Source: a virus
Direction: 5' to 3' (one strand)
DNA length: 22,861 nt
IMG/VR virus record: IMGVR_UViG_3300046791_000308
Coordinates: 1 to 22,861 of that record
Shown here in pieces: positions 319 to 18,109 of the stretch; the stretch's first letter is position 1; every line of letters starts with the position of its first letter. The notes below the pieces were generated by a model that was not told the DNA's origin, did not search any database, and was given only the letters and a program-made list of their open reading frames with translations. The position numbers and the translations under genes are program-made.

Positions 319-2454
319 ATGGGCGCGTATAGCAATCGGGTCATCGCGGACGGCGCCTCCTACTACTGGCGGCTGGGGGAGTCGTCTGGGCTGACGGCGG
401 TGGCGGCGGTGGGCGGGGCGAACGGGACGATTAGCGGCGGGGTGACGTTGGGGCAGCCGGGGGCGATCGCGGACGGCTCGACGGCGATGCTGTTTGACGG
501 CGTGGACGACAAGATCGTCGCGGCGGGGGCGGCTCTCCCGCTCGTCTGCACGATTGAAGCGTGGATCAAGATTGTTGACAATGCCATCTCGCGACCCATC
601 GTGTGTGGAACGAACGAATCCCCACGCTTTTCAGTCGAACCCAGCTTAAAACTCGGCTTATTTGACAATGCCAACACGGTTGGCCCTGGTGGGGTACGGG
701 TGCTCACGACGGGGCGGTGGTATCACGTCGCGTGTGTGATGACGGCGTCGGCCATCACGCTGTATGTCGATGGCAGTGTGGATGTGACCGTGGCCGTCAC
801 GCGAACGACGGCGGCACCGGCAGGAGTGCAAATTGGTCATGATGCGCTCTTTGGCCCTGACCAGCGTGGCTTCTGGCTCGGCTCCCTCGACGATGTCGCT
901 ATTTACCCTCGCGCCCTGACCGCTGCTGAAGTGGCGGCGCACTATGCGATTGGGCGCACGACGGAGGTGGGGGCGCAGGGGCCGTATGCGGATAAGGTCA
1001 TCAGCGACGGCGCATCGAATTACTGGCGCTTGAACGAGGCGAGTGGCACGACGGCGAGAGATAGCGTCGGCGCGAAAGACGGCACCATCAGTGGCGGGGT
1101 GACGCTGGGGCAACCGTCGCCGCTCCAGGATGGCACCTCGGCGATGACGTTCAATGGGACTGGCCGCGTGTTGACGGTGGCGAATGTCGCGCAACCGTTG
1201 GCGACGACGATGGAAGCGTGGTTTAAGACGGTTCCGAATGGGGCGTTTCAGGCGATCTGTTCGACACGCAACCCGGACGGCAACGCTGCCGCGATCTTTC
1301 TCGGAGTGCGTTCGACCGGCAACCTCTGCGCGTATAACGGCGGCAGCGGGGCGAATCTCGACGGCATTCGCATGGTGGCGGATGGCCTCTGGCATCATGT
1401 GACAGCGGTGTTTGCGGGTGGCACCACCGCCAGTCTGTATGTCGATGGCGTACTCGACAACACGGGGAACTTTTCGCGCACGGCCCTGACGGGTTTGCCG
1501 GTATCGATTGGGTCTGACGCCGCCACGTTCTTTTTTGTCGGCGCTCTCGATGAGGTGGCGATCTATCCTCGCGCCCTGAGCGCCAGCGAGGTGGCGGCGC
1601 ACTATGCCCTCTCGACGGTGCCGGAGCCGCGTGACCTGAACACCGGCCTCTACACCTATTTACTGGGCGTGTTTGGCCTGAGCGCGGCGACGAGCTACGC
1701 GGAGCGCGTGAAAGCGGACGGCGCGACCAATCACTGGCGCCTGGGCGAGACAGCCGGGACCACCGCCGTCGATGCGATTGGCGGGGCGAACGGGACGATC
1801 AGCGGGGGCGTGACGCTCAATCAGCCGTCCGCGATGGCCGATGGCAATGGGGCGATGCTCTTTCCCGGCACCGACACGGGGAAAATCACGACGCCGCTCA
1901 GTGCCGTCTCGAATGGGGCGGCGGCGTGGACGTGGGAACTGTGGGCGCGGCTCGACTCGCTGACCCCGTCACCGAGTGGGTTCCGCATGATGCTGGCACT
2001 CGGGGACGCGGCGAATTATTTCGGGTTCAACAGCGGGACCAACGAGTGGTACACCTCCACCTTCATCGCGGGGGCGCAACGGGTGTCGCTCATTGCTGGC
2101 GTGGATACGGCGTGGCATCACTTCGTCATCACCTACAACGGCGCGGTGTTTGTCTTGTACAAGGACGGCGTGGCGGGGAATGGCACCCCGATTGTCGGCA
2201 CGTTGACGAATACGGGGGCGTTGGTGATCGGCAATTATGCCGGGGCGAACTTTGGCTGGCCGGGGGCGATTGATGACGTGTCGATCTACCCTCGCGCCCT
2301 CACTGCCGCCGAAGTGTCCGCGCATTTCACGCTGGGGCGCAGTGGCCTGAGCGGCGGCAACGACCTGACGACCTTGATCACGCGCTATCTGGCGACCCTG
2401 ACCGGCGACATGACGGCGCGGTGGAAGCAGATGGAAAAAAACGCGGGGTTCTAG
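319..2454 (+). CDS. Tail adhesin with three tandem LamG/concanavalin A-like domains
   Basis: A 711-aa protein made almost entirely of three homologous units of about 210 residues, beginning near residues 4, 223 and 460. Each unit opens with a Y-x(2)-x-V-x-x-DGA-x-x-x-WRL motif, continues with NGTISGGVTL or a close variant, has a W-HHV/W-YHV core followed by LYVDG or LYKDG, and closes with IYPRAL-(T/S)-A-x-E-V-x-A-H. These are hallmarks of the Laminin_G_3/concanavalin-like lectin fold, which usually binds glycans. The units are joined by linkers of about 12 and 29 residues. A short tail ends ARWKQMEKNAGF, whose DNA is duplicated downstream. A purine-rich AGAGAG lies 8 nt before the ATG. There is no signal peptide, fitting a virion protein. 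A role in binding host surface polysaccharide is inferred from the domains and the phage context; enzymatic activity is not indicated. Confidence 0.85.
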   Translation: MGAYSNRVIADGASYYWRLGESSGLTAVAAVGGANGTISGGVTLGQPGAIADGSTAMLFDGVDDKIVAAGAALPLVCTIEAWIKIVDNAISRPIVCGTNESPRFSVEPSLKLGLFDNANTVGPGGVRVLTTGRWYHVACVMTASAITLYVDGSVDVTVAVTRTTAAPAGVQIGHDALFGPDQRGFWLGSLDDVAIYPRALTAAEVAAHYAIGRTTEVGAQGPYADKVISDGASNYWRLNEASGTTARDSVGAKDGTISGGVTLGQPSPLQDGTSAMTFNGTGRVLTVANVAQPLATTMEAWFKTVPNGAFQAICSTRNPDGNAAAIFLGVRSTGNLCAYNGGSGANLDGIRMVADGLWHHVTAVFAGGTTASLYVDGVLDNTGNFSRTALTGLPVSIGSDAATFFFVGALDEVAIYPRALSASEVAAHYALSTVPEPRDLNTGLYTYLLGVFGLSAATSYAERVKADGATNHWRLGETAGTTAVDAIGGANGTISGGVTLNQPSAMADGNGAMLFPGTDTGKITTPLSAVSNGAAAWTWELWARLDSLTPSPSGFRMMLALGDAANYFGFNSGTNEWYTSTFIAGAQRVSLIAGVDTAWHHFVITYNGAVFVLYKDGVAGNGTPIVGTLTNTGALVIGNYAGANFGWPGAIDDVSIYPRALTAAEVSAHFTLGRSGLSGGNDLTTLITRYLATLTGDMTARWKQMEKNAGF

Positions 2455-2459
2455 CGATG
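2415..2459 (+). repeat. Direct repeat copy 1 (45 bp): C-terminal tag plus stop-start
   Basis: A 45-bp sequence identical to 2805-2849. It encodes the last residues of the LamG protein (RWKQMEKNAGF), then TAG, CG and the ATG of the next ORF. It contains an A7 run and ends with TTCTAGCGATG. It therefore works as a module joining one gene's C-terminus to the next gene's start. Confidence 0.9.
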
Positions 2460-2570
2460 GGCCTGTGTCCGCTCTGCGAGTTTCAGTTGCGCCATACGGT
2501 GTGGAACCACTGGCGGGTCACCCTGCTCGGATGGTACTGGCGGCGGATGGGAAAAAACGCGGGGTTCTAG
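2457..2570 (+). CDS. Cys- and Trp-rich micro-ORF, 37 aa
   Basis: The frame opens at the ATG supplied by repeat copy 1 and closes at the TAG supplied by repeat copy 2, so its limits are set exactly by the repeats. It encodes a CPLC pair near the N-terminus (residues 4-7), five Trp residues and the C-terminal MGKNAGF, nearly the same tail as the LamG protein's MEKNAGF. The CxxC could be one half of a zinc site, or a remnant of a larger zinc-ribbon gene. There is only a GGGG stretch as a possible ribosome binding site, so translation would probably depend on re-initiation after the upstream stop 2 nt away. It may equally be a degenerate remnant left by repeat-mediated rearrangement. Confidence 0.4.
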   Translation: MGLCPLCEFQLRHTVWNHWRVTLLGWYWRRMGKNAGF

Positions 2571-2575
2571 CGATG
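2545..2575 (+). repeat. Direct repeat copy 2 (shorter, one-base difference in the A run)
   Basis: About 31 bp matching the 3' part of the 45-bp repeats: GGATGGG, an A6 run, CGCGGGGTTCTAGCGATG. The encoded tail changes from MEKNAGF to MGKNAGF, and the stop-start junction TAGCGATG (2568-2575) is preserved. Confidence 0.85.
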
Positions 2576-2785
2576 CGGTTCACGCGACACGCCGTCCGCT
2601 GGTGCATGGAGGAGCGCATCCATCCCGGCGCGAAGCGCATTGATTCGGGCATCGGTGACCACGACTTCCGCGACACCAACGTGCGCCGAATCCAGCAGTG
2701 TCTGAAGGATCTCCAGCAGCAATTGCGCGTCTCGTTGTTGCGCCTCGGCGGTTTCGACAGCGTTCGTAGGCACGTCCATGAATGA
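2573..2785 (+). CDS. Small basic hypothetical protein, 70 aa
   Basis: ATG 2573 belongs to the TAGCGATG junction and the frame ends at TGA 2783-2785, overlapping the next ATG by one base. It is Arg/His-rich. The first residues (MRFTRHAVRWCMEERIHP) faintly recall the N-terminal strand-helix of DUF4258-like proteins, but the rest does not follow that family. A reverse-strand ORF covers the same bases in register, so strand is a real question. By my manual count, GC by codon position on the + strand is about 66/40/80 percent, the normal coding profile here, whereas the reverse reading would have low GC at its third position. That and the junctions favour the + strand. Confidence 0.5.
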   Translation: MRFTRHAVRWCMEERIHPGAKRIDSGIGDHDFRDTNVRRIQQCLKDLQQQLRVSLLRLGGFDSVRRHVHE

Positions 2786-2844
2786 TGAGTCTACCCGAAC
2801 GGTTGGCGCGGTGGAAGCAGATGGAAAAAAACGCGGGGTTCTAG
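2785..2844 (+). CDS. 19-aa micro-ORF ending in the repeated MEKNAGF tail
   Basis: ATG 2785 overlaps the preceding TGA by one base (TGATG), and the ORF stops at the TAG inside repeat copy 3. It encodes MSLPERLARWKQMEKNAGF. The last 11 residues are identical to the end of the LamG protein. It may be a translated leader that couples the preceding gene to 2847, or a truncated duplicate of the LamG gene's 3' end. No independent ribosome binding site is seen, so confidence is low that the peptide has a function. Confidence 0.3.
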   Translation: MSLPERLARWKQMEKNAGF

Positions 2845-2849
2845 CGATG
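2805..2849 (+). repeat. Direct repeat copy 3 (45 bp, identical to copy 1)
   Basis: Base-for-base the same as 2415-2459 over 45 bp, including the A7 run and the terminal TAGCGATG. It supplies the stop of the 19-aa ORF and the start of the 87-aa gene at 2847. The identical copies lie 390 bp apart with the shorter copy between them. Confidence 0.9.
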
Positions 2850-3110
2850 AACGAGTACACGGCTGGCAACATTACCGACGACGGCTTCTACCGCGAACCG
2901 TGTCTGCCGATGAATCAGACGATGACGGTGGGCGGCACCTACTTTCCGAATAGCAACTGGCCGTACACCAGTTGGCCGTACATCACCTACCCCAGCGTGT
3001 ACGTGTCTGCGCCGGTTGAGTGTTCCGGCGACGTGCATGTGTTTCCGTGTCCGCACTGCGACAAATGCAAATGCGGTGCGGCAACGGTAAAACGGAAGAA
3101 AAAGGCGTGA
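2847..3110 (+). CDS. Small aromatic- and Cys-rich protein with putative zinc knuckle, 87 aa
   Basis: The gene starts at the ATG of repeat copy 3 and ends at TGA 3108-3110. The middle is rich in Trp, Pro and Tyr, with a doubled WPY motif (NWPYTSWPYITYPS, residues 37-50). The C-terminal part holds CPHCDKCKCG (residues 68-77), with Cys 68, 71, 74 and 76 as a likely metal site, followed by a basic KRKKKA end. The family is not recognised. Small zinc-binding proteins recur across this window, so a DNA- or virion-associated role is possible but unproven. Its 3' end overlaps the U-tract side of the minus-strand terminator; the same A-run encodes its terminal lysines. Confidence 0.6.
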   Translation: MNEYTAGNITDDGFYREPCLPMNQTMTVGGTYFPNSNWPYTSWPYITYPSVYVSAPVECSGDVHVFPCPHCDKCKCGAATVKRKKKA

Positions 3111-3125
3111 GTCTGATACTCGCGC
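3096..3125 (-). terminator. Intrinsic terminator of the minus-strand cassette
   Basis: GCGTGAGT (3105-3112) pairs with ACTCGCGC (3118-3125) in eight consecutive pairs, one of them G-U, around a 5-nt loop. Read on the minus strand, the hairpin is followed by C, TTTTT (3103-3099), C and TT, the classical U-tract. It begins 6 nt after the stop of the last minus-strand gene. The + strand side has no comparable T-run, so it works mainly for leftward transcription. Confidence 0.7.
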
Positions 3126-3130
3126 TTGCG

Positions 3131-3346
3131 TTAACTTGGACTGTCGGGCTTGTGCAAGCGCAGAATCACGCCGCTCAACAGGCCCAGATGCAGATACATC
3201 GTGGCGCGGGACGTGCGGTCGGCGCGGTCGGCGTCCCGGTAGTAGTCGTGCAGCAGGGTGACGCCCTGAATGGGGTCGTCTGGGATGGTCTGCATGATGG
3301 CGGTCAGTCGGGCGCGGTCGTCGTCGGTCAAGGTGTCGTCAGCCAT
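3131..3346 (-). CDS. Small hypothetical protein, 71 aa (minus-strand cassette)
   Basis: The gene reads leftward from ATG at 3346 to TAA at 3133-3131. It is acidic at the N-terminus (MADDTLTDDDRARLTAI), with a helical middle and a short hydrophobic stretch near residues 50-63 (MYLHLGLLSGVILR) that may be amphipathic or membrane-associated. Its start overlaps the end of the gene upstream in the cassette by 8 nt, and the terminator follows immediately, so it is the last gene of a three-gene leftward operon. No strong Shine-Dalgarno is visible; translational coupling is likely. The product is not recognised. Confidence 0.6.
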   Translation of the reverse strand: MADDTLTDDDRARLTAIMQTIPDDPIQGVTLLHDYYRDADRADRTSRATMYLHLGLLSGVILRLHKPDSPS

Positions 3347-3560
3347 CGCGGGAGTCTACCGGAAGTCTTGAGCGCAGGCGATCTAGTTCCGCGAAGTGCG
3401 ACTGGGGCACCAGCACCCACTTGCCAGACTCCAGCATCGAGAGCAGGCGGCTCAGCGTCTCCCGGGCCGCACGAATCTCGTCCAGCGTGGGCGGCCGGTC
3501 ACTGCTGACCCGATACCGCCCATGGCGACGTGGCGCTTTAGGTGCGGCGCTTTCGGGCAC
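3339..3560 (-). CDS. Small helical hypothetical protein, 73 aa (minus-strand cassette)
   Basis: The frame runs leftward from GTG at 3560, overlapping the end of the PEP-CTERM gene by 23 nt, to a stop overlapping the next gene. The N-terminal 25 residues are basic and Pro-rich. The rest (from PPTLDEIRAARETLSRLLSM) looks like a helical hairpin ending in LDRLRSRL. No signal peptide, Cys or enzyme motif is present, and there is no clear Shine-Dalgarno, so coupled translation or a start further inside is possible. Overlaps on both sides and common orientation place it in one transcript with its neighbours. Function is unknown. Confidence 0.55.
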   Translation of the reverse strand: MPESAAPKAPRRHGRYRVSSDRPPTLDEIRAARETLSRLLSMLESGKWVLVPQSHFAELDRLRSRLPVDSRDG

Positions 3561-4263
3561 GAACGGCGACCAGCAAGCCAGTCCCGAGGAGCATCATCGT
3601 GGCCGGTTCCGGTACGGGCGAGGCCAACTCGTTCTGGCCACGACTAATCAGGGAGCCTCCTGCCGCGAGGTCCAGGTCAAAGCCCATCGACATCGAGAAC
3701 ACCCCCCCCGCCGCGAAGAGCGATCCGCAATTCAGCGAGAAGCTATCCACGCCGGCTCCCGCGAGATCCGCCGAACTGCAGATCAGCAACCCCGGCAGAT
3801 CGTTGAACGCCTGGCCGCCCTGCCCGTTGGCGGCATCGGCCCAGAAGGTCATGCCGATGGTGGACCCCGGCGCACTGAACCAGGTGCCACTGCCGGACGC
3901 TTGCACAAAATCCACCGGCCCGACGAAGCCGGTGGCCCCGATGGCGACTTCCGCGCTCACCGTGCCGGCGGTGTTGTTCGTGATCGAGAGTGACGAGGAA
4001 TTGAGCGCATTGGTCGTCCCGAAAAGCGCCGTGTGCAACGAGCCTTCAATCGTCAGGCCGCCAATCACCGTGGTCGGCAGACTCACGATGCCGATAGCGG
4101 GATTGGTGTCGAGAATCTGTCCGGGTCCGCAGGCGACGTTGTTGTCGGACGCACAGAACGGGGTGCCGCCGACCAGGCCGGCCAAGAGGATGGCCGCTGA
4201 GGCGGGGGCCGACGAGAGGGCGACGAGCACGGCGACGAGGGGCAGGCAGCGGACGAGTTTCAT
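3538..4263 (-). CDS. PEP-CTERM sorting-signal protein, exported, 241 aa
   Basis: The start at ATG 4263 is chosen because AAGGAG lies 8 nt upstream on the minus strand and the translation then begins with a textbook signal peptide (MKLVRCLPLVAVLVALSSAP, probable cleavage after ASA, residues 21-23). A longer in-frame extension to 4362 lacks both properties. The C-terminus carries VPEPATMMLLGTGLLVAVRA (from residue 217) followed by RKRRT: the PEP box, one transmembrane helix and an Arg/Lys cluster that define PEP-CTERM proteins, which exosortases process in Gram-negative, often biofilm-forming bacteria. The middle is Gly/Ser/Thr-rich and beta-prone with several Cys; I recognise no enzyme domain. 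No exosortase is encoded here, so it would need a host enzyme. It is the first gene of a leftward cassette in a rightward virion region: probable host-modifying cargo. Confidence 0.85.
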   Translation of the reverse strand: MKLVRCLPLVAVLVALSSAPASAAILLAGLVGGTPFCASDNNVACGPGQILDTNPAIGIVSLPTTVIGGLTIEGSLHTALFGTTNALNSSSLSITNNTAGTVSAEVAIGATGFVGPVDFVQASGSGTWFSAPGSTIGMTFWADAANGQGGQAFNDLPGLLICSSADLAGAGVDSFSLNCGSLFAAGGVFSMSMGFDLDLAAGGSLISRGQNELASPVPEPATMMLLGTGLLVAVRARKRRT

Positions 4264-4382
4264 GGGCGAGGCTCCTTGGGGGTGTGACGGCGTGAGTGCC
4301 AAGGCTAGCGTCGGGCCGTGCTTCGGCGCGGGAGCATCAGATTCGGTGCCGGAGTGGATCACTATATTACTAGCGTCGATCT
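4264..4382. promoter_or_regulatory. Divergent intergenic region with AT-rich promoter candidate
   Basis: 119 bp separate the leftward PEP-CTERM gene from the rightward terminase gene. It is GC-rich apart from ACTATATTACTAG at 4361-4373, which offers TAATAT leftward (4369-4364) or TATATT rightward (4363-4368) as a -10 box. I do not find a good -35 element at standard spacing for either direction, so the promoter call is tentative. GACGCTAG occurs twice on the minus strand in this gap. Some promoter is expected here because two genes diverge. Confidence 0.35.
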
Positions 4383-5375
4383 GTGGGCATTCTGCAAGCC
4401 GCGCCCGTGCAGGCCATGGTGGACGCGAAAGCGATCTGCTGCTGGTGTGGCGAGACGCTGAAACGGGCGAAGCAACTGAACGTCTGGTCCCCGTGGTGGT
4501 GTTTCACGAAAGCCTGCTACGAACGCCAGTGCGCGTGGTCCGTCACCGCCGAGAAGAAGGGGCGGCCCACGGAGTGGCTCTTCTGTCCGGTGCCCAAACA
4601 GGTGGAGTTTTTCGAGGAAGCCTACCGGCTCGGCAAGCTGGCCCTGGCCGATCCCGAACGTGGCTCCGGGCGCGTGTTATTTGGCGGAGCAGCTGGCCCT
4701 GGGAAATCCCATGCGCTGAGATGGGGCTTGTACCGCGATGCGATGCGGATCCCGGATCTGAATTGCCTGCTGCTTCGGCGCACGTTCAAGGAACTGGACG
4801 CCACGCACCTCCGAGAGATGATGCGCGAAGTGCCGCGCCTGGGCGGCCGGTACCTGACGGCGGATAAGAGAGCCGTCTGGCCGAACGGCAGCGTCATTCA
4901 GGCCGGCCACTGCGAGACGGACACCGACGCCGGCAATCACCTCTCGACCGAATACGACCGTGAGGTGTTCGATGAACTGGTCACGTTTGCCATGGAACCG
5001 GCGCTCGAGATTATGTCTCGCGCCCGAACCGCGAAAGACGCGGTGAAAGCGGCCGGCGGGGCGCAAGTGTGGGCCGGCAGTAATCCTGGCGGCCGGGGCG
5101 CCTTGTGGGTGAAAGCGTTCTTCGTGGACAAGAGCGTCGATCCCGCGCAGTTTCCGAAGTATCAGCCGGAGCGGTATTCCTACGTCCATGCCAAACTGGA
5201 AGACAACCCCTACATGGATCCGGCATACCGCCAAACATTGGAAGAGATGCCGAGTCTAAGACGACGACAGCTTTTGGAAGGCGACTGGTCCGCGTTCGAA
5301 GGCCAGTTCTTCGATTGGTTGCCATCGAAGGATGGCTCACCGTGGCATATAGATGACGTTGGCGTGACGCCGTGA
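4383..5375 (+). CDS. terL: Terminase large subunit, ATPase half (split gene)
   Basis: A 330-aa DNA-packaging ATPase. An N-terminal Cys cluster (CCWCGETL, then WWCFTKACYERQC) resembles a zinc finger. The ATPase follows: PVPKQVEFF as the adenine-binding region, Walker A GGAAGPGKS at residues 101-109, Walker B VFDE with Asp197/Glu198, coupling motif SNP at 233-235, and the typical end LEDNPYMDPAYRQTL then LLEGDW and GQFFDW. A complete large terminase would now continue into an RNase H-like nuclease, but this frame stops after WHIDDVGVTP; the nuclease is a separate gene at 6184. The GTG at 4383 is the first start after an in-frame TAG at 4371. ATG 4416 would keep every motif and is a credible alternative. 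The partner should be the portal, the next large gene. Confidence 0.9.
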   Translation: MGILQAAPVQAMVDAKAICCWCGETLKRAKQLNVWSPWWCFTKACYERQCAWSVTAEKKGRPTEWLFCPVPKQVEFFEEAYRLGKLALADPERGSGRVLFGGAAGPGKSHALRWGLYRDAMRIPDLNCLLLRRTFKELDATHLREMMREVPRLGGRYLTADKRAVWPNGSVIQAGHCETDTDAGNHLSTEYDREVFDELVTFAMEPALEIMSRARTAKDAVKAAGGAQVWAGSNPGGRGALWVKAFFVDKSVDPAQFPKYQPERYSYVHAKLEDNPYMDPAYRQTLEEMPSLRRRQLLEGDWSAFEGQFFDWLPSKDGSPWHIDDVGVTP

Positions 5376-5802: not shown

Positions 5803-6200
5803 TGGATGACGACATGGCCGCTCGACTCGCCCGGATGTTTCCTGGCGACTTGGTGCCCAGCGACGAACTGCCAGACCCGCATGTGCCGATGCGCGTCCGA
5901 CGCCAACTGATGCGCGGCGTACGGTACGAACCGCCGCCATCGCCCGTCACCGCTGAGAAATTCCGGCGTGTGATGGAAAGTTTGCCGGAACCACCGTCCG
6001 CACCGTCCGCGCCACAGGTGTGTTCCGTGCCGACGAAAGCGTATTTGCTGGAAAATTCCGCGCATGTCACCCGATGGTTGGAGGAGGCGAAGGATCTCGA
6101 GAGTGACGTCAAGCTCGGGCAACCGGCCGAACCGCATCAGGTCACGCGCCTGCTGCTGGAAGTCATCCCCGTGGTGGAGCAGCATGTATCGCGCCCGTGA
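5802..6200 (+). CDS. Hypothetical protein preceding the terminase nuclease, 132 aa
   Basis: ATG 5802 shares one base with the previous TAA. The protein has an acidic start (MDDDMAARLARMFPGDL), a proline-rich middle (LPEPPSAPSAPQ) and a helical C-terminal third (residues about 80-130) with AHVTRWLEEAKDLESDVKLG and VTRLLLEVIPVVEQHV. It overlaps the nuclease gene start by 17 nt, so the two are probably coupled. Its size and helical end could suit a small terminase subunit or a linker protein, but no helix-turn-helix is evident, so this is speculation. Confidence 0.55.
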   Translation: MDDDMAARLARMFPGDLVPSDELPDPHVPMRVRRQLMRGVRYEPPPSPVTAEKFRRVMESLPEPPSAPSAPQVCSVPTKAYLLENSAHVTRWLEEAKDLESDVKLGQPAEPHQVTRLLLEVIPVVEQHVSRP

Positions 6201-7668
6201 TCTGAAAGTCGCGTTAGGGTGCGACTGGGGCAACGCCTCGCCTGGCTGTGTGCTCTGGGGCTGTGCGCTGCCAGACGGGCACGTCCATATTTTCGATGAA
6301 TATAAATTCCAGCGCATGACGGCGAAGGATGTCGCGTGGGAAGTGAAACAGAAATGTTCCACATGGAACCTTGAGACGGTGCCGTACGCCTGTTGCGATC
6401 CCTCGCTGCTTCCTGCGAAAAAAGGGGTGGCCGGCGAGTGGATTGGCTTGACGCTGCAGCGACACGGGTTGCCGGTCAGGCGCGTCAGTAATGATCGCGT
6501 CAACGGCTGGCAGCGCGTCCATGAGGCGCTCGGCGTCAACCCGCAAACCGGCCGCCCGTGGATGACCATCCATCCGCGCTGCAAGTACCTGACGCGCACC
6601 TTGCCGCTGATGGTGCAGGCCAAGCTCAACCCCGAAGACCTCGAGAGCGACAGCGACGACCACGCCTGTTTCGTCGCTGGCACGATGGTGCTGACGGCGC
6701 GAGGCGAGGTGCCGATTGAATCGGTGACGTTGCAGGACGAAGTGTGGACACCTGATGGCTATCGACATGTACTCGCGGTCGCGATGACGGAGGCAAGTGC
6801 GTCAACGATGACACTCTTCCTCAGTAATGGGCGCGTGTTGCACGGCACGGGGAACCATCCGATTTTCATCAAGGGCGAGAAAATCCGTCTGGATGCGCTG
6901 AGGTATGGCGATATCATAGATGGATGGGCGATCTCTCCTGGTGCCATCGAGACGCACGGGCTAAATGGCGACGACTGGTCGGGCCGATTCCTCGCGGCTA
7001 CGAGATTCATCACAAGGACGGTAACCCGCGCCATAACGCACTCTCAAATCTGGAATGCGTGTCGAAACGGGATCATGCGGCCCGTCACCGTTGGGGCCAG
7101 GGACGTGAAGATCACTTGGCCGCCATCCGTCCATTGGCCGCTGAGTGGCATCGCAGTCCTGCAGGACGGGCGTGGCATCGCGCTCACGCTGTGGCCGTCT
7201 GGAAGAACTGGACGCCCATCCAGAAGCAGTGCGATGTCTGCGGCGTTCTCTACGAGGACATCACCCGTCGAGCGTCCAGCCGGTTCTGTTCCAATAACTG
7301 CAAGTCTCAGTGGAGACGCCAGAGCGGCGTGGATCTCATCGACCGCCTCTGCGCTGTGTGTGGCGGCACCTTCCGCGTCAGCAAGTACGATCACACCCGC
7401 CGCGCCTGTTCGCGTCCCTGTGCTGGTCGTCTCATCTCCGCAACCAAACGAGCGAAGACAGCCGGTCTATAACCTCACCGTGGACGGTGGGCAGTACGTC
7501 GCCAACGGTATTCTCGTCAGCAACTGTGATGCCCTCAGGTATCTCCTGATGGGCGGTCTGCGACCAGGCGTGGCCCAGCGTGACGTGCCAGAAGTGGTGC
7601 CACTGAGTAGCCGGTGGTGGCGCAAGTATTATGGCGATGACGTTTCCACCGGGATCCTCCGCACCTGA
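6184..7668 (+). CDS. terL: Terminase large subunit, nuclease half, with intein
   Basis: A 494-aa precursor starting at ATG 6184, with GTGGAG shortly upstream. Residues 1-161 and 448-494 form the headful-type RNase H-like nuclease: motif I in VALGCDWGN (Asp14), motif II in ACCDPS (Asp72), then motif III DDHA, interrupted by an intein and resumed as CDALRYLL. After splicing the product would be 208 aa with an intact DDHACDALRY site, ending GDDVSTGILRT. The frame remains open upstream to 6064, but that part overlaps the previous gene and lacks nuclease motifs. It would act in trans with the ATPase encoded at 4383 to cut concatemeric DNA during packaging. The last 38 nt overlap the portal gene. 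Splicing is inferred from motifs and is required for a complete catalytic site. Confidence 0.88.
   Translation: MYRARDLKVALGCDWGNASPGCVLWGCALPDGHVHIFDEYKFQRMTAKDVAWEVKQKCSTWNLETVPYACCDPSLLPAKKGVAGEWIGLTLQRHGLPVRRVSNDRVNGWQRVHEALGVNPQTGRPWMTIHPRCKYLTRTLPLMVQAKLNPEDLESDSDDHACFVAGTMVLTARGEVPIESVTLQDEVWTPDGYRHVLAVAMTEASASTMTLFLSNGRVLHGTGNHPIFIKGEKIRLDALRYGDIIDGWAISPGAIETHGLNGDDWSGRFLAATRFITRTVTRAITHSQIWNACRNGIMRPVTVGARDVKITWPPSVHWPLSGIAVLQDGRGIALTLWPSGRTGRPSRSSAMSAAFSTRTSPVERPAGSVPITASLSGDARAAWISSTASALCVAAPSASASTITPAAPVRVPVLVVSSPQPNERRQPVYNLTVDGGQYVANGILVSNCDALRYLLMGGLRPGVAQRDVPEVVPLSSRWWRKYYGDDVSTGILRT
6667..7524 (+). mobile_element. Intein in nuclease motif III of the terminase
   Basis: 286 codons from Cys1 (TGT 6667) to the terminal Asn (AAC 7522-7524), followed by Cys+1 (TGT 7525). 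Block A is CFVAGTMVLTARGEVPIESV; block B is GTGNHPIF with the conserved T-x-x-H. The C-terminal splicing region is VYNLTVDGGQYVANGILVSN (7465-7524). Both splicing parts are in the same reading frame, and the frame between them stays open. The central ~165 codons, however, read as Ser/Ala/Arg-rich sequence without domain character, while the HNH gene occupies another frame there. The residue before the terminal Asn is Ser rather than the usual His. The insertion lies between DDHA and CDALRY, a highly conserved catalytic site, as is typical for inteins. Confidence 0.9.
6924..7472 (+). CDS. HNH homing endonuclease nested out of frame in the intein
   Basis: A 182-aa ORF in the frame one base back from the intein frame. 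It contains a clear HNH core (GPIPRGYEIHHKDGNPRHNA then LSNLECVSKRDHAARH, residues 20-55, His29/His30, Asn34 and downstream Asn/His). Two tandem four-Cys zinc modules follow: Cys103, 106, 122, 126 and Cys143, 146, 162, 166, the second Cys pair of each spaced C-x3-C. This is typical of mobile phage HNH enzymes that cut intein-less alleles. Its TAA (7470-7472) lies inside the DNA for intein block F (GTC TAT AAC). ATG 6924 is the first start in the open frame, but the nearest purine stretch (GAGG at 6900-6903) is too far away for a normal Shine-Dalgarno. How it is expressed (internal initiation, or -1 frameshift from the intein N-half) is unresolved. Confidence 0.88.
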   Translation: MGDLSWCHRDARAKWRRLVGPIPRGYEIHHKDGNPRHNALSNLECVSKRDHAARHRWGQGREDHLAAIRPLAAEWHRSPAGRAWHRAHAVAVWKNWTPIQKQCDVCGVLYEDITRRASSRFCSNNCKSQWRRQSGVDLIDRLCAVCGGTFRVSKYDHTRRACSRPCAGRLISATKRAKTAGL

Positions 7669-9721
7669 CCCTGTCGGCGCCGATCCCTCCGGCGTTCCAC
7701 CCGAACTGCAACACGCCGTGGCCCCAGAAGAGCCGTTAGCGCGGCCGGATATTCTGCCGCTGTCCGAAGAAGACTTGACGTTCTGGAGAGCGGAGATTGA
7801 CCGCTCGGTGAAACTCCGCGACGGCGTCATCTCCGCCTGGGGCGTGACCGACAACCTCGAGCGGTACACGCCAAAGTCCGTGATGAGCGGCTCGAAGATG
7901 AGCGGCCAGGTCAACGTCGGCAAAGACTTCAGCGACGTCGAGCGCAAGAAAGCCGCGCTCTTCTACGACACGCCCGATATTGCGATGGTCCCGGATCCCG
8001 GCACGGATGGCTCCGTGCTGCAACTGCATCAGGAAGTCCTCAATAGCTTACTTGGCCCCAAGCGCATGGACGCCAAGGCCACGGTCTTGCCGACGATTCT
8101 CGATTGCCTCGTCGCCATTCAACCGTGCCCGACCGAGATTGGCTACAACGCCGTCACGGTGGACATGCCGGAGACGCAACCGGGACCCCCGACGCCCGAT
8201 CCGCAAACCGGCCAGCCCGTGCCAGGGGCGCCGATACCAACCGGCAAGATGGTGCCCGTGCCGGTGTGGGAGGAATTCTTCTGGCGCCGGATCTCGCCCA
8301 AAGCGATTCTGCTCCCGGTCACGCTCAAGGACACCCGCTACGACGAAGCCGTGTGGATCGGCTTCCAGTGGCGCAAGCCGCTCTCCACCGTGAAGCAGCA
8401 GTATCAGCTGCCCGAAGAGTGGACGGGTGGCAACGATAGCGTCCTCGACAAACCGCACTTTGAACCGCTGGTGGATCCCGGTGACGAAGGCGAACCGATG
8501 GTGGCCGGCGTCAAGCTCTGGTATCGCGCCTCCCTCCGCGATCCCAACATCACGCATCCGCAAGTGATTCGCGTGTTGGAGCTGATTGACGGCCTCCCCG
8601 ATCCGGTGGTGCATCAAAACGTGCCCTACCAGGAAGTCGGGAAGGATGGACGCCTGACGCCCAACTCGATGATCGGGTTGCCGTGTCATCCCTTGGCGCT
8701 CCGCGACCTGACCGATTCACCCTTTGTCGCGAGTGACTGCACCCTGACCGGGGCGTTGACGCGGGAGTTGAATACCTTCCGCACCCAGATCATCGAACGG
8801 CGCGATGCGTCCAAGCTGCATCTGCTGTTCGACAGTTCGAAGGTCAACCAGGAAGTGCGCGACAAGATCGAGAACGGCAGTGCGCCGAAGATGATTCCGG
8901 TGGAAGCCGGTGCCCTCGAGGGTGGCGCCGACGCGATCATGCAGCAAGTCCCCGGCATCGTGCTCGGCCGCGAGAACTACATGGGCCAGGACGTCATCGA
9001 GCGCGACCGCGATGGCATCTTGGGCATGAACCAGAATTCCACCAACCCTCGCGGCGAAGGCGGCAAGACCGCCACGGAAGTGAAGACCGTCCAGCGCAAC
9101 ACCGATGCGCGGTTTGAGCAGGAGCGCCAGCGCGTCCTGCAGTGGTGGTTGACCGGCGTCCAGAAGGTGAGCGCCCTGGTGCTCCGCTACGGGGACCGCA
9201 TCGCCGTCGAGATTCTCGGTCCCCAGCGCGGCCAGGCGTGGGTGCAGGCGAGAGATAAAGGCCAGTTCACGCGCTTCGCGTTTGAAATCGTGATCGACTC
9301 CGGCACCTTCGTGGACATCGAAGAGCGCAAGCGTCAGGACATCCAGTTGTACAACCTGACGGCGAAGGATCCGACGCTCAACCGTTCGACCTTGCAGGCG
9401 CGAATCGCCACGGACTTCGGCATTGACCCCGCGCAGTGGATCGTCACCAAACCGCCAGAGCATCATCCCGATCCGCCGACGATTTCTATTAGCGTCAAGC
9501 CGGAGGATCTCGATCCGGCGTTGCCCAGTTACGTCGGCACCTTCGCGATTCTCAGTGCCGGCGGGGTGAAGGGACTTCCGCCGCCTCAGCCAGTGGCCGT
9601 GGCCCCGCCCCCGCCGACACCGGGATTGTTGCCGCATCAAGGCACCCCGTCGCCCGTGCCGCGACTCGACCAGCATCAACTCGATCAGACCGGCCAGCCG
9701 CCGGGACAAAGGCCGATGTGA
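7631..9721 (+). CDS. Portal protein
   Basis: A 696-aa protein directly after the terminase, the usual place and size for a podovirus-type portal. The N-terminal 45 residues are Pro/Ala-rich. The next block (EEDLTFWRAEIDRSVKLRDG, then NVGKDFSDVERKKAALFYDT) matches the helical clip/wing start of such portals. The middle has the interior sequence LTRELNTFRTQIIERRDASK, and the C-terminal half has GKTATEVKTVQRNTDARFEQ followed by LQWWLTGVQKVSALVLRY, as in long portal helices. The last ~50 residues are a Pro-rich tail. It overlaps the terminase nuclease gene by 38 nt. ATG 7631 lacks a clear ribosome binding site; ATG 7637, two codons later, is possible. It would form the dodecameric ring through which DNA is packaged and ejected. 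Confidence 0.85.
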   Translation: MAMTFPPGSSAPDPVGADPSGVPPELQHAVAPEEPLARPDILPLSEEDLTFWRAEIDRSVKLRDGVISAWGVTDNLERYTPKSVMSGSKMSGQVNVGKDFSDVERKKAALFYDTPDIAMVPDPGTDGSVLQLHQEVLNSLLGPKRMDAKATVLPTILDCLVAIQPCPTEIGYNAVTVDMPETQPGPPTPDPQTGQPVPGAPIPTGKMVPVPVWEEFFWRRISPKAILLPVTLKDTRYDEAVWIGFQWRKPLSTVKQQYQLPEEWTGGNDSVLDKPHFEPLVDPGDEGEPMVAGVKLWYRASLRDPNITHPQVIRVLELIDGLPDPVVHQNVPYQEVGKDGRLTPNSMIGLPCHPLALRDLTDSPFVASDCTLTGALTRELNTFRTQIIERRDASKLHLLFDSSKVNQEVRDKIENGSAPKMIPVEAGALEGGADAIMQQVPGIVLGRENYMGQDVIERDRDGILGMNQNSTNPRGEGGKTATEVKTVQRNTDARFEQERQRVLQWWLTGVQKVSALVLRYGDRIAVEILGPQRGQAWVQARDKGQFTRFAFEIVIDSGTFVDIEERKRQDIQLYNLTAKDPTLNRSTLQARIATDFGIDPAQWIVTKPPEHHPDPPTISISVKPEDLDPALPSYVGTFAILSAGGVKGLPPPQPVAVAPPPPTPGLLPHQGTPSPVPRLDQHQLDQTGQPPGQRPM

Positions 9722-11745: not shown

Positions 11746-12717
11746 ATGCCGAATGTCACGCAAGAAGTGGCGGCCCAGTTCCAGAAGGTCGTCGGCGATA
11801 AGCCTGAAGACAATATTTTCAAAGAATTCTCCTTCTTGATGCTGCTCGAAAAGAACGGCGCGGCCCCCCTCACGGGCGGCCGGTCTGCGATTGGCAGCAT
11901 CGAGTACGCCGTCAACACGACGGTCAAAGCCATCTCCGACACCGAGACGTTGGACGTGACTCGCGTCGATGTGTTTGACGAAGCCGAGTACACCTGGAAG
12001 CAGTACTCCGGCACCTTCACCATCTCGACGTATGAGGAAGCGATCAACCGGGGCGCGACCCAGAAGATCGATCTCCTCGCCGGCAAAGCGGAGAACCTCC
12101 GCTCCTCCATGCGCAACGCCGTCAACACCGACGCCTTCGGCAACGGCACCGGCACCAGCGGTAAGGTCATCGGGGGGTTGCAGTTGCTCGTCCCGGACGA
12201 TCCGACCGCCGGCACCCGTGGCGGTATCTCGAATGTGACCTACACGTTCTGGAGAAGCCAGCAAGTCCTCGGCACCAAGGCTGCCACGGCCTACGACAAC
12301 CTTCGGGCCGCGATGCGCTCGATCAACATCAAGTGCGCGACCGGCCAGGGCAACACGCATCCGACGCACTTTCTGACCGGCCCAAACACCGTCGCCGGCT
12401 ACGAAGGCTTGCTCATTGCCAACGAGCGCATCGTCAGCAAAGAGAAGAGCCAGGCCAACGCCGGCTTCGATGACGACGCCTTCATGTTCAAGTCGGCGAA
12501 GGTCGTGTGGGACTTCGCGTGTGCCGACGCCAGGATGTATGCGCTTCGCTTCGGCCAGAACGGTCTGCGTCTCGCGTATCAGACCGGCCACTGGTTCAAG
12601 GCGTACGCCGCCGTCGATCCCGCGAATCAGTTGGTGGACATCGTCAAGGTGGAAACCATCTGCAACCTGGTGACGTTCAACCCACGCCATCTCGGCGTGA
12701 TCACCGTTATCACCTAG
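11746..12717 (+). CDS. Major capsid protein
   Basis: A 323-aa protein in the canonical place after the scaffold. It starts MPNVTQEVAAQFQKVVGD with an N-terminal helical arm; a beta-rich section then includes DVFDEAEYTWKQYSGTFTIS. There is a Gly-rich loop (FGNGTGTSGKVIGGLQLLVP), a helix with AYDNLRAAMRSINIK, and a C-terminal beta region ending FNPRHLGVITVIT. This layout fits HK97-fold capsid proteins of podoviruses and related phages. The strong ribosome binding site (GAGGG), isolation by a terminator just downstream, and absence of fused protease all agree with a heavily produced structural gene. Subfamily assignment would need a structure or profile comparison. Confidence 0.82.
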   Translation: MPNVTQEVAAQFQKVVGDKPEDNIFKEFSFLMLLEKNGAAPLTGGRSAIGSIEYAVNTTVKAISDTETLDVTRVDVFDEAEYTWKQYSGTFTISTYEEAINRGATQKIDLLAGKAENLRSSMRNAVNTDAFGNGTGTSGKVIGGLQLLVPDDPTAGTRGGISNVTYTFWRSQQVLGTKAATAYDNLRAAMRSINIKCATGQGNTHPTHFLTGPNTVAGYEGLLIANERIVSKEKSQANAGFDDDAFMFKSAKVVWDFACADARMYALRFGQNGLRLAYQTGHWFKAYAAVDPANQLVDIVKVETICNLVTFNPRHLGVITVIT

Positions 12718-17287: not shown

Positions 17288-18109
17288 ATGCCGCTGGCGA
17301 AAGCGTATCGGCATCGCCCGACTGGCATCCCGGTGCAGTACCTGATTTGCGGCGGCGGGGGCGGGGGCGGACACAGCATCGGGAGTGGACGGTGCGCGGG
17401 TGGCGGTGGTGGTGGGCAAGTTGTCACAGGTGCTCAGACGCTCACGTCGCTCACCGCGTATCCCGTGGTGGTCGGGATCGGTGGTCGTGCGGCGAATCCG
17501 CCGGTCGATCTGACGAATCAGGGATTACCAGGCGGCAACTCGACGTTTCTGGGACTACAGGGTGGTGGCGGGGGCGGGGGCGGCGGCGGGACGGGCGAAG
17601 GACAGCCGGATCACAACGGCGGGTTTGGCCCTCCCGGATCAAGCGGTCCCGGCGGCGGCGGTGGCACACCGGACGGCGCTGGCGCGAACGGTGGTGCGAA
17701 TGCGAATGGCACGAATGACGTGGCCGGCGGCGGGGGCGGCGATGGGTTTGGTGCGACGGCGCCGAACGGCGCGAACGGCATTGTGAGCAGCATCACGGGG
17801 ACCGCGACTCCGTACGGATCAGGCGGTGGCGGCGGCACGAACCTCGGCACCGTGCAAGGCGGCACGGGTGGTAACGGTGGGGCGGGTGGAACCGGGGCAG
17901 GACAGTTTGGCAGCGCGTTAGCACCGACGGCCTTTGGCGGCGGGGGCGGGGGTGGCAGCCAGAACGGCAACGAGTCAGCGGGACGACAAGGCGTCGTCAT
18001 CGTCAGCTACGACGGGCTGACCGTGCGAGGCAGCGGCGGCGTCATCACGCAAGCAGTGGGACGCACGATTCATACGTTCACCGGCAACGGGACGTTCACG
18101 ACGATCTGA
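17288..18109 (+). CDS. Glycine-rich receptor-binding/fibre-tip protein, 273 aa
   Basis: Nearly half of the residues are Gly, in runs of up to ten, separated by Asn/Thr/Ala segments. It begins with PVQYLICGGGGGGG, has the strand YPVVVGIGG, and closes with RQGVVIVSYDGLTVRGSGG and GRTIHTFTGNGTFTTI, landmarks of glycine-rich phage adhesins (Gly_rich_2-like; compare the polyglycine-II core of T-even-type gp38 adhesins). In that architecture, glycine runs stack as a helix sandwich and variable loops between them bind the receptor. The gene follows the fibre gene by one base (TGAGATG). Host recognition is inferred from the family and position. Confidence 0.75.
   Translation: MPLAKAYRHRPTGIPVQYLICGGGGGGGHSIGSGRCAGGGGGGQVVTGAQTLTSLTAYPVVVGIGGRAANPPVDLTNQGLPGGNSTFLGLQGGGGGGGGGGTGEGQPDHNGGFGPPGSSGPGGGGGTPDGAGANGGANANGTNDVAGGGGGDGFGATAPNGANGIVSSITGTATPYGSGGGGGTNLGTVQGGTGGNGGAGGTGAGQFGSALAPTAFGGGGGGGSQNGNESAGRQGVVIVSYDGLTVRGSGGVITQAVGRTIHTFTGNGTFTTI

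Follow-up and report, generated by a model that had tools for sequence, protein, structure and literature searches.

The window analysed here is a complete virus record from IMG/VR (22,861 bases) and carries on its minus strand a gene for a PEP-CTERM protein (Table 1). The C-terminus of this protein, VPEPATMMLLGTGLLVAVRARKRRT, is recovered by PF07589 over residues 216-239 (29.5 bits against a cut-off of 20.7, E 7e-07) and by TIGR02595 over residues 217-240 (23.3 bits against a cut-off of 16), while its N-terminus, MKLVRCLPLVAVLVALSSAPASA, displays by eye the pattern of a signal peptide, which is also seen in the aligned relatives described below. A six-frame scan of the record with PF07589 returned this single match (E 1.3e-9), and the same scan gave 0 matches in 14 control genomes. 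The named NCBIfam PEP-CTERM families (NF038129, THxN, MHFG, XDP1 and others) match the protein via the tail only, with scores far below all of their cut-offs. Searches with the protein yielded no match in PHROGs at E 0.01 and, by tblastn at E up to 0.1, nothing among 50,697 phage or 72,556 plasmid records; Rfam at its gathering thresholds found no match within the window. Two small ORFs on the same strand follow the gene, both without a family match in the profile searches, and the one overlapping its 3' end may be co-transcribed with it.

Table 1. Features of the window (positions in bases; evidence as obtained in this study)
Feature	Position	Strand	Evidence
Virion-type protein, three Laminin_G_3/ConA-like lectin domains	319..2454	+	PF13385 E 1e-63, three stretches; phrog_8510
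Small ORF, 71 aa, next downstream of the 73-aa ORF	3131..3346	-	ORF list only
Small ORF, 73 aa, overlapping the 3' end of the PEP-CTERM gene	3339..3560	-	ORF list only
PEP-CTERM CDS, 241 aa	3538..4263	-	ATG at 4263, stop ends at 3538; profile matches
PEP-CTERM sorting signal: VPEP, hydrophobic helix, basic tail	3541..3618	-	PF07589, TIGR02595
Predicted beta-sandwich domain, residues 24-216, conserved FCxxDNNxxC motif	3616..4194	-	AlphaFold2 model, alignments, fold neighbours
Signal-peptide-like N-terminus, about residues 1-23	4195..4263	-	By eye; low-confidence helix 4-15 in the model
Ribosome-binding-site-like AAGGAG	4272..4277	-	Sequence, 9-14 nt upstream of the ATG
Terminase large subunit, ATPase part	4383..5375	+	phrog_979 E 6e-29
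Terminase C-terminal part with intein	6064..7668	+	phrog_30251; intein profiles
Major head protein	11746..12717	+	phrog_9953 E 5e-43

The record was classed as that of a tailed phage on its terminase (phrog_979), its major head protein (phrog_9953), tail-fibre families and the virion protein of phrog_8510. The PEP-CTERM gene sits between the lectin-like virion gene and the terminase and is antisense to both. The initial annotation, drawn from the sequence alone, had placed it in a virion-gene region; this is correct as to location and has to be qualified in that the gene runs against the virion genes that adjoin it. Among named phages the head protein has relatives in 11 records at 24-35% identity, including Myxococcus phages Mx8 and Mx9 and phages of Bradyrhizobium, Stenotrophomonas, Ruegeria and Rhizobium, and the relatives of the terminase, in 279 records, all lie below 60% identity. 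Together these head and terminase relatives give a hint, and no more, of a proteobacterial host.

Several other features of the record deserve mention. The triple-lectin protein lies close to the left end of the record. The terminase is split into two ORFs separated by about 700-800 bases with small ORFs, and is encoded by two adjacent ORFs in the contigs L003 and L005 and by a single 534-aa ORF in L006. Its intein is recognized by a C-terminal profile above the cut-off, with the N-terminal and Hint profiles below theirs. An HNH endonuclease ORF (6924-7472, plus strand; PF13392, E 7e-13) lies out of frame within this intein, and the reading frame of the intein continues uninterrupted through the same stretch; apparently the homing endonuclease is nested in another reading frame instead of being fused in frame. 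Directly after a tail-fibre-type gene is found a gene for a very glycine-rich protein of 273 residues (17288-18109, plus strand), which belongs to phrog_2295, a family of unknown function.

An AlphaFold2 model based on a 13-sequence alignment (in which the row of L022 is short of its first residue and that of L015 has one extra) has a mean pLDDT of 82, with 78-94 per ten-residue block from residue 31 to 210, and predicts a beta-sandwich spanning residues 25-216 flanked by an N-terminal and a C-terminal helix. Its structural neighbours include Bdellovibrio Bd1399 (Z 10.0), SGBP-B (9.2) and TmCBM61 (8.8), at 7-9% identity, and phage tailspike domains (Z about 8); among the 50 Foldseek matches listed, TM-scores to the query reach at most 0.37. 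The predicted beta-sandwich is compatible with glycan binding, but so common a fold cannot establish a function.

Relatives of the protein were found in 52 other IMG/VR contigs, giving 53 viral records with the window. A scan with the single sequence recovered one relative (L002), and profile scans raised the number to 18, then 28 and then 52 contigs; one further family contig (L073) came from a scan for the tail only. The L002 protein is 76% identical to that of the window, and BLAST of the L002 contig (8,259 bases) against the window found nothing in common beyond the PEP-CTERM gene. The same contig encodes a phage-type glycosyltransferase (6639-8108, phrog_2170), another possible surface-modifying gene. 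The PEP motif, the hydrophobic stretch and the basic tail are retained in 51 of the 52 members with a complete C-terminus, a count over the 53 records including the window and leaving out L060, whose C-terminus is cut at the contig end; the sole exception, L059, has LEP in place of PEP. Among the 29 records of the earlier scans, the window included, 28 pass the PF07589 cut-off and L034 falls below it. The window gene is thus a member of a gene family of phages and not a one-off. The proposal that a phage encodes a PEP-CTERM protein was upheld by both profiles above their curated cut-offs, by the setting among virion genes and by the retention of the tail in related phage genes; the C-terminal signal was accepted by both profiles when so checked, and the search of viral contigs that had been advised for such proteins brought up these 52 related contigs and others with PEP-CTERM tails. 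Because the same gene recurs within many phage contigs, a chimeric assembly is unlikely.

The phage nature of these contigs was examined through hand-picked neighbouring genes, and PHROGs matched 38 of 53 chosen proteins from 21 of the 52 family contigs, leaving 15 without a match; the contigs beyond these 21 are viral by the IMG/VR classification. Neighbours of head, packaging or tail families occur in 15 contigs (L002, L013, L020, L021, L025, L026, L027, L028, L031, L032, L039, L041, L043, L047 and L051) and replication or integration genes in L007, L009, L015 and L022, while four proteins from L017 and one from L034 had no PHROG match. The terminases across the family contigs belong to different families (phrog_979, phrog_9, phrog_38), of which phrog_38 matches 10 of 42 records, three of them weakly. 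The PEP-CTERM gene is located directly after the portal gene in L013, directly after the terminase in L020, directly before the portal in L043 and before the terminase in the window, L032 and L039, whereas the genes seen near it in L007, L009, L015 and L022 are of other kinds; as the neighbours were chosen by hand, this tally is not a statistic. Such positions among late genes, beside terminase or portal in several contigs, are what would be expected of a virion or lysis component that merely resembles a PEP-CTERM protein. We judge this very unlikely: in the window the gene runs on the strand opposite to the virion genes, a signal peptide and a membrane anchor suit a virion poorly, and L003, L005 and L006, three fragmentary contigs related to the window phage and ordered like it, show no PEP-CTERM match.

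In a tree of 40 domains the window protein groups with that of L002 (support 100/99), and these two with L013 and L020 (99/93). As L013 and L020 carry other terminase or head families than the window, the grouping of the four implies that the PEP-CTERM gene moves between phages. In 16 chosen pairs from the family dN/dS ranged from 0.05 to 0.55, all below 1, with a value of about 0.05 for the window and L002, where dS is near saturation; judged by these ratios the genes look to be under purifying selection. Two pattern scans were run over 84,980 species genomes, of which one found nothing and the other found only Roseomonas populi, where the homologue lies among ordinary chromosomal genes in a genome that has an exosortase. 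HMM searches of 150, 398 and 385 genomes from the order, phylum and class of Roseomonas, samples that may overlap and are confined to the phylum of R. populi itself, found no homologue in the other 149, 397 and 384. Within the genomes scanned the domain is therefore rare in cellular organisms, and the existence of the Roseomonas homologue means that it is not exclusive to phages. This chromosomal copy beside ordinary bacterial genes, the shortness of some contigs and the partial coverage of the phage vetting would agree with the gene being a passenger, that is, a host gene caught by chance or part of a misassembled or misclassified bacterial contig. Its presence in 53 viral records on several backbones, dN/dS below 1 in 16 of 16 pairs and the lack of an HMM match in those other genomes make such an origin extremely unlikely.

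No exosortase (PF09721) was detected in 69 viral records (0 of 29 and 0 of 40), many of them fragments and 15 of the latter 40 being contigs of other PEP-CTERM families, from which it follows that the host must supply the sorting enzyme. The initial annotation had the phage using host exosortase; dependence on the host was borne out by the PEP-CTERM architecture and by this result, and delivery by that enzyme, well supported by the anatomy, stands as a prediction. Receptor masking, exclusion of other phages and altered aggregation, which the annotation put forward as possible purposes, stay conjectural, and the existence of a phage family, of side-by-side PEP-CTERM genes and of a host promoter motif in one subclade goes beyond it. 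Based on these observations we consider it probable that the gene encodes a substrate of the host exosortase by which the phage alters the host surface during infection or lysogeny. The protein would be made from the minus-strand unit, probably exported by Sec and anchored by its C-terminal helix in the inner membrane; the host exosortase would then cut at the PEP motif and release it to the outer surface or the exopolysaccharide (EPS), where the beta-sandwich, resembling a carbohydrate-binding module (CBM), could coat or cross-link surface glycans. Lysogeny is not claimed for the whole family, an integrase having been found in only 3 of 42 records, many of which are fragments.

PEP-CTERM tails on viral contigs extend beyond this family. 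Two PEP-CTERM matches occur in 8 of 29 records, and the second gene, read in L017, L020, L023, L030, L032 and L033, encodes a different protein and lies next to the first; between L020 and L032 the second proteins share 35% identity. The tail-only scan retrieved 27 further viral contigs, most of them without phage vetting, with such tails on other domains, some of which, L096, L097 and L109 among others, have no plausible signal peptide at the chosen start. Ten of these contigs (L083, L087, L094, L100-L103, L105, L106 and L110) carry a second PEP-CTERM family with an unrelated domain, in L083 directly before the terminase; vetting of one protein each from seven of these gave a terminase in L083, a phage family of unknown function in L101 and no match in five. 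That the tail is a module common to phage PEP-CTERM proteins of unrelated domain, neighbouring pairs included, would also be explained if the phage protein were a decoy that floods or jams the exosortase and strips the host of its PEP-CTERM proteins, easing lysis, release or entry. We regard this as improbable, as a decoy would have no need of a domain that spans about 190 residues, is conserved and evolves under purifying selection.

Several genes in one part of the family are preceded by a promoter motif known from bacterial PEP-CTERM genes. In Proteobacteria many such genes carry upstream a 17-nt motif with TTTACA at its end, followed after a spacer of 32-92 nt by a sigma-54 site that lies 23-221 nt before the start, and TTTACA with a -24/-12 element was reported upstream of 99 of 167 genes (Haft et al. 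2006, PMC1569441). We scanned for TTTACA together with a sigma-54 site scoring at least 8 of 11 in the published geometry, with the minimum distance to the start relaxed from 23 to 20 nt; the sigma-54 sites had been spotted before the published motif was consulted, the threshold of 8 was chosen after seeing them, and the TTTACA word was taken from the paper (PMC1569441). After dropping near-identical contigs and leaving out L015, L033 and L057, for which the script assigned no start, the composite element was present before 8 of 38 phage PEP-CTERM genes (L026, L028, L029, L031, L039, L041, L047 and L051), with hits 42-69 nt before the start. It preceded none of the 583 other ORFs that were called mechanically on those contigs, and 7 of 7,600 shuffles contained it. 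The eight genes fall together in a single supported part of the tree alongside four that lack the element (L043-L046); as related sequences, the eight do not represent eight independent events. L032 carries the element with one mismatch, and L073 is the only one with it among the 29 loci of the tail-only scan, whose starts were guessed by the script. Scored alone at 9 or more of 11, a sigma-54 site precedes 7 of the 25 genes in the part of the family found last and 8 of 371 controls, as against 0 of 12 versus 2 of 134 in the part that includes the window (at 8 or more, 0 of 12 versus 12 of 134). Upstream of the Roseomonas gene lies a sigma-54-like site (10 of 11, at -107), but a TTTACA box is lacking there even when one mismatch is allowed. 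One phage subclade, not that of the window, thus carries the promoter motif of the host PEP-CTERM regulon. The window gene itself shows no recognizable TTTACA box or sigma-54 site; a candidate sigma-54-like promoter, with a best site of 7 of 11 and a shuffle p of 0.27, was rejected, and no sigma-70-like site was found in positions 2400-4700.

Floc formation, in activated sludge for instance, involves exosortase and PEP-CTERM proteins. In an alternative reading, an EPS-binding PEP-CTERM protein keeps infected or lysogenic cells in flocs or biofilm, where the progeny find hosts, with no part for exclusion. The promoter motif of the subclade would co-express the gene with host matrix proteins, and the CBM-like fold of the model would agree with such a role. 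PepA of Aquincola tertiaricarbonis, a RpoN-dependent PEP-CTERM protein acting on EPS binding, offers a bacterial parallel: on its overexpression soluble EPS falls, bound EPS rises and an rpoN1 mutant forms flocs again (PMC9850573). Among several PEP-CTERM genes tested, however, only pepA rescued flocs (PMC9850573), and a PEP-CTERM protein therefore need not do so. We hold this alternative to be unlikely, though less so than the others considered above.

The probable role as a host-sorted protein altering the cell surface is favoured by the tail signal and its conservation, the absence of a viral exosortase, the varied backbones, purifying selection, paired genes, the promoter of the subclade and the folds, together with the rise in cell-bound EPS caused by overexpression of the host protein PepA (PMC9850573). 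Counted against it are the absence of the motif before the window gene, the modest fold matches (Z 8-10), the scarcity of integrases and the occurrence of the domain outside phages. As to what the phage gains, altered access to receptors or EPS appears most likely. Within the proposed mechanism the likeliest benefit would be that competing phages are denied access to receptors, while changes in EPS or aggregation would be incidental; superinfection exclusion as the leading benefit is, taken by itself, possible and rather doubtful. The working analogy is with the Ltp-type superinfection-exclusion lipoproteins of temperate Streptococcus thermophilus phages, which are likewise phage-encoded and exposed on the host surface (PMC3952083). 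They differ in being lipoproteins of Gram-positive hosts, in which their function was studied (PMC3952083); an exclusion role of the window protein is suggested by analogy.

The phage proteins have in common with the PEP-CTERM/EpsH (exosortase) system of Haft et al. (2006, PMC1569441) the tripartite tail and, in one subclade, the upstream TTTACA followed by a sigma-54 site at a spacing within the published range. Unlike that system, the genes described here are phage-encoded and come without an exosortase in the viral records searched, and the word 'phage' does not appear in the available text of that paper (PMC1569441). The full-text literature searched, which included few subscription papers or preprints, yielded two earlier traces of such genes and no account of their mechanism or regulation. 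In virus contigs from Yellowstone, TIGR03118 proteins (n=13) with a putative exosortase-interaction C-terminus are listed among horizontally acquired genes, in a passage that gives no anatomy, regulation or mechanism for them (PMC11003980); the window protein differs from these in having no TIGR03118 match. A gene table for a metagenomic fosmid lists a PEP-CTERM gene beside a prophage-type integrase (PMC3630121).

Since the family is present in many environmental phages, some of them with the bacterial on-switch, it seems that phages dress the host surface via the exosortase system. A more specific proposal, to which we give somewhat less than an even chance, is that one or two exosortase substrates travel as a mobile cassette that uses the host sorting pathway and, in one lineage, the PrsR/sigma-54 regulon, such that the phage would rewrite the matrix coat exactly when the host builds it. 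If true, this would amount to a sortase-like phage conversion at the level of the envelope in Gram-negative bacteria. A family of phage genes in which the tail and, for some members, the host promoter are conserved supplies exosortase substrates that can be tested, and it suggests that phages compete for control of the matrix coat. PEP-CTERM genes also offer a handle for predicting the hosts of uncultured phages among exosortase-positive Proteobacteria.
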